NCBI RefSeq assembly: GCF_965363235.1
Contig: NC_134851.1
Location: 35,306,321 to 35,370,320, forward strand
DNA: 64,000 nt
Direction of reading: 5' to 3'
Origin: Mytilus galloprovincialis
Lineage: Eukaryota > Mollusca > Bivalvia > Mytilida > Mytilidae
Part shown: piece by piece, positions 32,573 through 35,716 of the stretch
Position numbering within the stretch: position 1 is the first letter of the stretch
Layout: every line of letters starts with the position of its first letter
Program-made: the position numbers and the translations under genes
Notes under the pieces: model-generated
Seen by the model: the letters and a program-made list of their open reading frames with translations, nothing else
The model's database searches: none
Told to the model about the DNA's origin: nothing

Positions 32573-33450
32573 ACAATCATTTCTTTATTATTTAAAACCT
32601 TTCAAAAGTCAACAACAAATGATAAAAAGTGATCAAGAGCTACATGTACTATCTTCCTACTGTATCAAAACTCAATCTTAATTTATGAATTGTCCCTGAT
32701 CTCTCTGATTTTGTAGAATATTGACTACAATTGTAACCTAAAAAAAACTATAAGTTCAAAGTATTATCGCTTTATAGATGAAATATTTTAGAGAATGTAA
32801 ACACTTTTATGGTTAAAGTGTTCTTAAATTTCCTATTCACCATATTCTTTATATTTCATAGAAAAAAAATTGGAGATTCATTCATGACACAAAGTCAGTA
32901 CAGACACAGCTAACAAAATTGTCTGTCTGAAGTCAGGAACATGACATGCAGTGATTGTGGCGTAAACCTCCTGCAACAGATTAATAACTGTTGTAGAGCA
33001 AACTATACGAAAATTGCACACCAAAAAGATCATATTAGTGGAGAATGAAAAGTTGAAGGGTTAACTAACTAACAAATGGGGCCTCTTGCATTTGCGCCAA
33101 TTTTTGAAAATTACAATCTTTCATTTGCGCCACAAGGTTATATTACATTTGCGCCAAAAAATTAAAACTTCATTTGCGCCATTTTACAGGTAATTCAGGT
33201 AAGCAATAACGAACGCGTTAAATATTCATTGTTCTAAAAGGTTTGTCTCTACAGAAGCTGAGAGTCACTAAGGTTTATAATTATATATAAAGTAGTGTTT
33301 TCATATTCGAGGTGTCAAGTTGGACATTTCCAATTTAGACCTAAAACTGGTGAGTTAAGTGTGTAATATTTGATGACCACACTTTAAAGTTTTATACGGA
33401 AGCGTATTAGCGCCACACATTTTTTTTTTTTTATTTTTCTTCCTATGTTT

Positions 33451-33632
33451 GCGTTAAACGCAAACCTTTGCGATATATCGCAAACCTTTGCGTTATAACG
33501 CAAACCTTTGCGTTATATAACGCAAACCTTTGCGTTATATAACGCAAACCTTTTGCGTTATAACGCAAACCTTTGCGATATAACGCAAACCTTTGCGATA
33601 TAACGCAAACCTTTGCGATATAACGCAAACAT
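33451..33632. repeat. left array of palindromic 20-bp units
   Basis: Eight copies of a CAAACCTTTGCGNTATAACG-type unit are present. The unit joins a perfect palindrome (GCGTTATAACGC or GCGATATATCGC) to a near-palindrome (GCAAACCTTTGC). Spacing varies by one or two bases, and small reading frames across it are by-products. Confidence 0.85.
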
Positions 33633-33913
33633 TTGTTTTATCTTATTTCTTATTTAAGATTCAAAGGAAACAGTAGTTATTAATGGAGGAGGCTGGATGT
33701 GATAAAATTTATCACCTTTGTAGTAATTGCAAAGTAAACTACTTGAATAATTAGATCATATCAATGACTAATAATGAGCATAATAATATAAGAAGATGTG
33801 GTATGAGTGCCAATAAGAAAACTCTCCATCTAAGTCACTATTCGTAAACGTAAACCATCATAGGCCGAATTACGGTCTTCAACACGGAGCATTGGCTCAC
33901 ACTAAACAACAAA

Positions 33914-34180
33914 CTATAAGGTCCCCAAAAACGATATCCAAGTTACTACTAGTATATATATTCCAAAGAAAATTGAGTAAATTGAGGTTATACCTAAGAA
34001 AAAAATCAACCCTGCTAATATAGCTATAACCGAATATAAATATACTTCCAAAGTCAGCTCTCGTTTGAGAACTGTGTAAAGTAGGTTACATTCAAACAAG
34101 CTACCCTTTGGCAATAAATGTATAGAATGAAGATGTTTCATTAATAAAATTATGTTCTCTCTATTCAAATTGCTACCCAA
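33914..34180 (-). CDS. hydrophobic 88-codon frame inside the inner element (doubtful)
   Basis: The C-terminal half (YLYSVIAILAGLIFFLGITS and on) is hydrophobic, as expected for one or two membrane segments. I recognise no family. AT-rich DNA readily gives such frames, so this may be chance. Confidence 0.15.
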   Translation of the reverse strand: MGSNLNRENIILLMKHLHSIHLLPKGSLFECNLLYTVLKRELTLEVYLYSVIAILAGLIFFLGITSIYSIFFGIYILVVTWISFLGTL

Positions 34181-34612
34181 GCATCTTAAAAATACTTCAT
34201 TATATTGAAATGAAAATTCAATGACTTTCTATCAAAGAATCTTGATCATATTCTGAGATTTAAAAAAAATGTTTCCTTATTAATAATTCATTTTAAAGCA
34301 GAAAGATCATTTTGTCTATTTGACTTGGAGGTTTCACAATTGTATGACATTATTTTTAATCTTTCAATTTTAATATGACTATATACTATATCTATTTTCT
34401 TGTTAAATTATATACTTTTCTGATGCACAAATCAGTCTTAATTTATGTATAATTGCACTTCAATTATTCCATTATTCCTATGCATATTTATTATAATGAT
34501 TTGGCCTTGTATGTATGTTTCTTTTTTTATCTACTAGTAAATCACATCCGAAATGAATGACAGACGGACATATATACAAAACTTAATGAATAATTGAAAT
34601 AAAGATGTTTGT

Positions 34613-34928
34613 GTTATATCGCAAAGGTTTGCGTTATATCGCAAAGGTTTGCGTTATAACGCAAAGGTTTGCGTTATAACGCAAAGGTTTGCGTTATAAC
34701 GCAAAAGGTTTGCGTTATATCGCAAAGGTTTGCGTTATATCGCAAAGGTTTGCGTTATAACGCAAAGGTTTGCGTTATATCACAAAGGTTTGCGTTATAA
34801 CGCAAAGGTTTGCGTTATATCGCAAAGGTTTGCGTTATAACGCAAAGGTTTGCGTTACAACGCAAAGGTTTGCGTTATATCGCAAAGGTTTGCGTTATAA
34901 CGCAAAAGGTTTGCGTTATAACGCAAAC
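34613..34928. repeat. right array of palindromic 20-bp units
   Basis: Fifteen copies of GCAAAGGTTTGCGTTATAAC, the inverted counterpart of the left array at 33451-33632. Copy number differs between arms (15 against 8), so the arrays have expanded or contracted independently since they formed. Confidence 0.85.
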
Positions 34929-35716
34929 ATAGGAAGAAAAATAAAAAAAATAAAATGTGTGGCGCTAATACGCTTCCGTAGTTTTAGTTTATTATCAGAT
35001 CATATGTACTTAAAAATGGAGACCAAGTCGTTTATTGGTACCCCGAATGAATAAAACCTTGCAAAACCAGTACATTTGTATAACAACTGAAATGGATTGC
35101 AGTTCATGAAAATACGGACTATTTTTTTATCAATATGGTATTCACTTGAGAGGAAGAATTTTCCAGACATGAAAACATCAGGGCCGTCGCTTACAAGTTT
35201 GTGCAAGGGTATACTTTACAATAGTGTTTCATGCTTTATAGAATAACTCTAGTGTAAACTGTTTTCTTTTATATTTCATATTAAGTGGTATGATCACGTT
35301 TATTTATAACAGAACTGTGTTTCATTAAGGTTTTAACATCACTTGTGTGGTTTTATGTCGACTGATTTCTGAGGAATATATTTAATTTTGCAAACAAAAA
35401 CTTTCATTATCAAAAGTCTTTTTTTTTTTAAATATATGTTTTATACTATTTACCTGTATTTACAAAGATGTACCTGTAATATTGGCGCAATTGAAAGGTT
35501 TTATTTTGGCACAAATGAAATATTGTTTGTGGCGCAAATGAAAGATTATTTTAGCGCAAATGAAATGCCAATTGGCGTAAAAGCAAAGCACCGGACAAAT
35601 GTTATAAACTCGTTCGTGTTTAGACAAACAACAAACAACTAAGTTGAAGTTGCTTAACTCACATGTACATTGTATTTCAGGTGTGAAAATTGTTTACACA
35701 TTATTGTTAACTTTTA

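Follow-up and report, generated by a model that had tools for sequence, protein, structure and literature searches.

In the portions of the published accounts available to us, IS3EU families always have TA..TA ends and usually 6-bp target-site duplications (PMC10045372), and fungal TET-bearing IS3EU families have ends of the form TAYGG..CCRTA (PMC12730594). For Mutator-like elements (MULEs), the available part of the description gives duplications of 8-10 bp, and of 8 or 9 bp for Muta1 (PMC5225508).

Here, we analyzed a window of 64,000 nucleotides of the Mytilus galloprovincialis genome (C14:35306321-35370320; the searched genome comprised 1.385 Gb in 331 contigs), in which one transposable element lies within another. 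The nested pair consists of two non-autonomous DNA transposon families, the inner element being inserted in the outer one. Judging from sequence comparison, the ends, duplication and architecture of the inner element fit the known IS3EU superfamily, whose features it shares as described below, and the outer element is most likely a non-autonomous MULE. We consider it quite probable that the account as a whole is correct, i.e., that the two families are unrelated, that the non-autonomous MULE came first and that the non-autonomous IS3EU-type element was inserted later. Both families are new and their superfamilies are already known (IS3EU-like for the inner one, probably MULE for the outer one); no description of either family was found in the titles and abstract openings listed for the literature on IS3EU in Mytilus, bivalve MITEs, mussel MULEs and IS3EU subterminal or tandem repeats. 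What had appeared to be an undescribed sister pair is now seen as two families that can each be assigned a place and that differ in their transposition machinery; transposase-bearing relatives of both could be pointed out in the same genome.

Structure of the nested pair and order of insertion

The features of the locus, together with related elements elsewhere in the genome, are listed in Table 1. The preliminary description, made from the window alone, had recognized that one element sits inside another, that both have inverted ends composed of repeated short motifs, and the presence of CATTTGCGCC motifs at both outer ends, and a GTTTTA duplication and TACGG ends for the inner element, all of which were borne out. 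It placed the outer element at 33078-35594, which is the right location, except that each border was set one base too far out. Its view that both elements are non-autonomous and encode no recognizable transposase is also supported: of the eight frames in the window that are 60 aa or longer, four were submitted to Pfam, and none had a match at E<=0.01.

Table 1. Features of the nested pair (positions in the window) and related elements on other contigs
Feature	Position	Strand	Remark
Outer left target-site duplication AACAAATG	33071..33078	.	7/8 letters as in right copy; 8 bp is the family rule
Outer element	33079..35593	.	2,515 bp with inner insertion; ends are the borders of 26 other copies
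Outer element minus inner insertion and one copy of inner duplication			923 bp
Outer left subterminal motifs CATTTGCGCC (at 33089, 33122, 33146, 33171)	33089..33180	+	~24-bp spacing
Inner left target-site duplication GTTTTA	33389..33394	.	exact
Inner element, IS3EU-like, non-autonomous	33395..34980	.	1,586 bp
Inner left terminal inverted repeat TACGGAAGCGTATTAGCGCCACACA and T run	33395..33447	+	
Inner left array, 20-bp palindromic unit (TTTGCGATATAACGCAAACC)	33448..33635	+	9.2 copies
Inner core	33636..34606	.	no Pfam match for the 2 frames submitted from core
Inner right array, 20-bp unit (GTTTGCGTTATAACGCAAAG)	34607..34927	-	15.9 copies; inverted relative to left array
Inner right terminal inverted repeat ending ..GCTTCCGTA	34928..34980	-	
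Inner right target-site duplication GTTTTA	34981..34986	.	exact
Outer right subterminal motifs GGCGCAAATGAAA	35480..35565	-	22-24-bp spacing; inverted relative to left end
Outer right end	35480..35593	-	identical columns with right ends at MULE copies: C11 104/115, C10 102/115
Outer right target-site duplication GACAAATG	35594..35601	.	7/8 letters as in left copy
Sister element, TACGGAGC ends	C2:111294580-111308764		14.2 kb
Sister element, TACGGAGC ends	C3:62987754-63002116		14.4 kb
Sister element, TACGGAGC ends	C6:56899771-56916468		16.7 kb
Inward-facing rva_4 pairs	C1:105984419+/105997440-, C3:95786237+/95799066-, C7:51844549+/51857910-		
Inward-facing rva_4 pairs	C11:27453703+/27466771-, C11:65001695+/65014742-, C10:3153130+/3166158-		
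Inward-facing rva_4 pairs	C3:9676723+/9689920-, C7:45159916+/45172665-, C3:37033467+/37046500-		

The nested pair represents a natural ordered pair of insertions. In an alignment of the 26 other outer copies, nine had the site of the inner insertion uninterrupted (CACTTTTAGTTTAnT) and three more had a variant of it, while the remaining copies carried different indels at this site or were divergent there. With end pairs up to 4 kb permitted, the longest of the 26 copies did not exceed 1.31 kb, and thus none contains an inner-sized insert. Since these copies lack the inner element, the outer element was inserted first and the inner one later. Directly to the left of the inner element, the window copy has seven additional bases (AAAGTTT) that are absent from the nine uninterrupted copies, so the exact pre-insertion sequence at this site was not seen. 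A genome search with the joined host flanks of the outer insertion matched only the two flanks of the window itself, and hence no empty host site of the outer element was found. In the proposed order of events, a non-autonomous MULE of ~0.9 kb would have entered host DNA and made an 8-bp duplication; a 1.6 kb non-autonomous element of the IS3EU superfamily would later have entered this copy and made a 6-bp duplication.

The inner element and its transposase-bearing sister family

The ends of the inner element are TACGGAAGCGTATTAGCGCCACACATTT.., i.e., TACGG..CCGTA, and 61 of their first 62 bases agree with each other, the sole mismatch being at base 30; terminal inverted repeats of more than 30 bp are the figure stated for the fungal TET-bearing IS3EU families. 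The 21-base terminus had 605 forward and 587 reverse sites in the genome (1,192 altogether, up to two mismatches), compared with none for the reversed-pattern control. The search thus revealed a dispersed repeat with fixed borders. We examined 23 pairs of ends (each end with up to three mismatches, up to 4 kb apart, window included, one same-flank pair dropped), which are the best-scoring and first-listed matches and not a random sample. Exact 6-bp duplications flanked 16 of these pairs, and 19 agreed within one mismatch, against means of 0.12 and 0.62 pairs, respectively, for shuffled flanks; the other four did not fit 6 bp within one mismatch. Copy sizes ranged from 111 bp to 3.5 kb, and exact duplications were present in three of the six shortest copies examined (111-176 bp).

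The element therefore combines TA..TA ends of the TAYGG..CCRTA form with a 6-bp duplication, as do IS3EU and GingerRoot elements in the available portions of their descriptions (PMC10045372, PMC12730594), and the earlier suspicion of IS3EU proved to be a good guess. In contrast to these elements, the window copy has no recognized coding in those frames that were searched, no autonomous partner of its own was found, and the integrase-like DDE gene was matched in a sister family and not in the inner family itself. The 20-bp palindromic arrays at its ends are also unmentioned in the portions of the IS3EU and GingerRoot descriptions at hand (PMC10045372, PMC12730594). Ends made of tandem short units in inverted orientation are shared with the Mutator/Foldback element Tm1, although the part of its description available gives 9-bp duplications and 13-15-bp units for Tm1 (PMC3169594), instead of 6-bp duplications and 20-bp palindromic units. 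The inner family thus offers a case of satellite-like arrays carried by IS3EU-type transposons.

A 135-bp inner-type copy (C2:7985030-7985204) lies inside a palindrome (GATTCATGCAAA..TTTGCATGAATC) and has no 6-bp duplication. Two other copies, 41 Mb apart (C1:30877573 and C1:72235357) and in opposite orientation, have identical flanks, which indicates that the surrounding DNA itself was duplicated.

A transposase-bearing relative was found through rva_4 (PF24764), an integrase-like DDE family which we take to be the IS3EU transposase on the basis of shared features and not of a phylogenetic tree. Scoring 150 of 394 candidates in the genome gave 154 matches. One of these genes (L093; 370-aa frame, E 3.4e-28, 93.4 bits) is adjoined by a 21-bp palindromic array and the terminus TACGGAGCCCCGCTAGGG, which had 104+120 genome matches at up to two mismatches (control, 0+1). 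Among the matches listed, all three copies of this gene type (93.4 bits each) sit between inverted TACGGAGCCCCGCTAGGG pairs, and the three elements so delimited have exact 6-bp duplications (CAATAC, GTTTTG and TAATCG). Two shorter copies of the sister family also showed exact 6-bp duplications (GGTTTC and GCTATC), and in a 119-bp pair the right end has an additional partial copy of the terminus before GAGAAG. This transposase-bearing, TACGGAGCCCC-ended sister family resembles the inner family in that its ends start with TACGGA, that the end is followed by an A/T run and then a palindromic array, and that its duplications are equally long. In its 14-17-kb elements, the rva_4 gene is located near one end.

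Of the relatives encoding a transposase that the preliminary description had proposed to look for, one was found in the form of the TACGGAGC-ended sister family with rva_4, but none with the TACGGAAGCG ends of the inner family itself. Eight 501-bp samples taken upstream of rva_4 families contained no TACGGAAGCG-type end even at five mismatches; they consist of intron-like or unrelated DNA, one of them (L102) with an array. Neither of two further rva_4 representatives (L092 and L094) had an inner-type end pair, and the three long inner end pairs (L089-L091, 2.7-3.5 kb) contain inserted DNA and frames of at most 101 aa.

That these searches did not reveal the inner family's own transposase, and that hAT lineages with 6-bp duplications appear in the part of the literature available, might suggest that the inner element is mobilized by another superfamily, such as a hAT6 lineage or Dada, which also makes 6-bp duplications, and merely resembles IS3EU. 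We regard this as quite improbable, considering that a sister family with TACGGA ends in the same genome has rva_4 genes between its ends, its arrays being laid out alike and its duplications also 6 bp long. Moreover, TACGG..CCGTA ends are those published for IS3EU in the available portions of its descriptions (PMC10045372, PMC12730594). Under the IS3EU assignment, an integrase-like transposase (rva_4 or IS3EU-type) would move the inner element in trans by recognizing its TACGGAAGCG end, and the palindromic 20-bp units would probably be recognized as well. By inference, the transposase belonging to the inner family itself would be of the rva_4 type.

Arrays are palindromic in at least two IS3EU-type families here. 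It is conceivable, although we put it forward only tentatively, that several such families in this genome have one modular design, in which a short TACGG end and a T/A run lead into a satellite-like array with units of 20-22 bp, and the transposase gene follows immediately downstream. Such an array might serve both as a multi-site landing platform for the transposase and as a promoter or insulator region; two ends with a few units (111-176 bp) might suffice for movement, and the autonomous forms would be giant (14-17 kb).

Two other observations concern rva_4 genes. An array of ~22-bp units (TTTTCTATTATAAGATGGTGG) lies directly upstream of another rva_4 gene (L102, C2:41428333-41428833). In addition, one rva_4 gene family (mostly 436-aa frames) forms at least nine inward-facing gene pairs ~13 kb apart among the matches listed, possibly representing a large element that carries a transposase gene close to either end.

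The outer element and Mutator-like transposases

The outer termini are GGGCGCATTGCATTTGCGCCAATT and CGGTGCTTTGCTTTTGCGCCAATT, starting with GGGCG and CGGTG, respectively. A pattern covering both of them had 131+149 genome matches with up to one mismatch (control, 0); the ends of the copies coincide with the borders, and this element, too, is a dispersed repeat with fixed borders. The two termini are unlike (one GGG.., the other CGG..), and inversion between the ends is imperfect, with an end-to-end similarity over ~80-170 columns of roughly 68-83% that is mostly due to the repeated motif, in comparison with MULE inverted repeats that are typically longer than 100 bp.

The duplication flanking the outer element had been described as 6-bp ACAAAT. 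In fact, these letters fall within a longer duplication of 8 bp, AACAAATG/GACAAATG, whose two copies differ at one position. Among 27 outer pairs (window included), 16 had exact duplications of 8 bp, three of 9 bp and one of 7 bp; none was exact at 6 or 5 bp, and one of 27 was exact at 4 bp. Within one mismatch, 21 of 27 agreed at 8 bp, whereas shuffled flanks gave 0.00 exact and 0.02 within one mismatch. For three pairs (L015, L021 and L035), no agreement within one mismatch was seen at either 8 or 9 bp. The 8-bp and 9-bp duplications agree with the 8-10 bp of MULEs.

For the comparison with neighboring transposase genes, we listed outer ends at 120 distinct places (100 of the 280 pattern matches and the best 40 of each BLAST search). 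A search with MULE profiles gave 140 matches (150 of 324 candidates scored), of which one MULE domain (PF10551; C11:61336538-61336828) is followed at a distance of 0.9 kb by an outer right end (C11:61337730-61337853), the starts being 1.2 kb apart. Since only ~0.05 MULE matches are expected by chance within 2 kb of a listed outer end, this proximity was examined further. The C11 protein (gene at C11:61336508) has four near-full-length siblings with 97-99% identity, and the position of the right end was predicted from the C11 spacing at two of them, on C10 and C2. At the C10 sibling (gene at C10:13562975; 99% amino acid identity over residues 13-164), an outer right end was present no more than 10 bp from where it had been predicted, its distance from the reference residue being 1,318 bases compared with 1,308 at C11. 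The two right ends are identical in 113 of 115 columns, and the likeness stops at the terminus, with 3 of 15 letters alike in the flanks. At the C2 sibling, the predicted stretch contained no outer right end.

It is most likely that the outer element is a non-autonomous MULE, because a copy of its right end lies 1.3 kb downstream of a MULE transposase both at C11 and, in agreement with the prediction, at C10. Like the Muta elements of Aedes aegypti in the available part of their description (PMC5225508), the outer family has 8-bp, sometimes 9-bp, duplications and short subterminal repeats, and at two loci its right end is accompanied by a MULE domain (PF10551). It differs in that the window copy has no recognized transposase and that its imperfect inverted repeats consist mostly of CATTTGCGCC motifs and not of long arms that are nearly identical. 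A MULE transposase would move the outer element in trans by recognizing the shared end and probably also the repeated CATTTGCGCC motifs.

On the other hand, the comparison at MULE copies covers right ends only, and 8-bp duplications are also reported for Merlin and hAT in the literature available, so that the outer element might belong to another 8-bp superfamily (Merlin, hAT or P), its MULE neighbors reflecting coincidence or capture. Merlin shares the 8-bp duplication and G-rich termini, but in the available part of its description it has a conserved 5'-GG at both ends (PMC8101967), and the outer right end begins with CGG, although the left one starts with GGG. None of 48 Merlin (DDE_Tnp_IS1595) matches was found within 20 kb of the 120 listed places. 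For hAT, whose termini are of the CAGNG type and not GGGCG/CGGTG, none of the 150 listed matches (of 638 candidates) was within 12 kb of a listed outer end, and the nearest was 12.6 kb away; these distances refer to 141 matches on C1-C14, the other nine being on small contigs for which no outer end was listed. Considering these Merlin and hAT comparisons, and in addition that an independent MULE copy on C10 with an unrelated flank has the end where it was predicted, we think that membership in one of these superfamilies is unlikely and retain the MULE assignment.

Outer-type ends of the GGGTGCATTGC subtype cluster together with short hAT fragments at ~68.9-72.1 Mb of C12, which is perhaps a duplicated region. 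Nine small contigs (C15-C19, C21, C22, C24 and C29) each carry a hAT dimerization-domain match of equal score in a frame of equal length (125 aa). Such matches also occur on three chromosomes, as if a single repeated unit had been assembled many times.

Relationship between the two families

The preliminary description was right about two non-autonomous families, one inside the other, but not about their being related through a common 6-bp cutting pattern, as the duplications are of 6 bp in one family and 8 (sometimes 9) bp in the other. The kinship had been inferred mistakenly because the outer duplication was misread by two bases. Descent from related families served by one common 6-bp-cutting transposase could be suggested by the TTTGCG-rich, inverted, repeated subterminal motifs of both elements. 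However, this likeness is shallow, and kinship cannot be read from repeated short motifs at the ends. Exact 8- or 9-bp duplications in 19 of 27 outer pairs and exact 6-bp ones in none, as well as the outer right ends adjoining MULE transposases at two loci, make this reading extremely unlikely. On these comparisons of sequence, the two families are unrelated, because their duplication lengths, termini and probable transposases differ: the terminal letters are TACGG for the inner and GGG/CGG for the outer element, the transposase-bearing relatives fall in different superfamilies (rva_4/IS3EU-like for the sister family of the inner element versus MULE), and blastn between the inner and outer elements yielded matches of only 11-12 bases.
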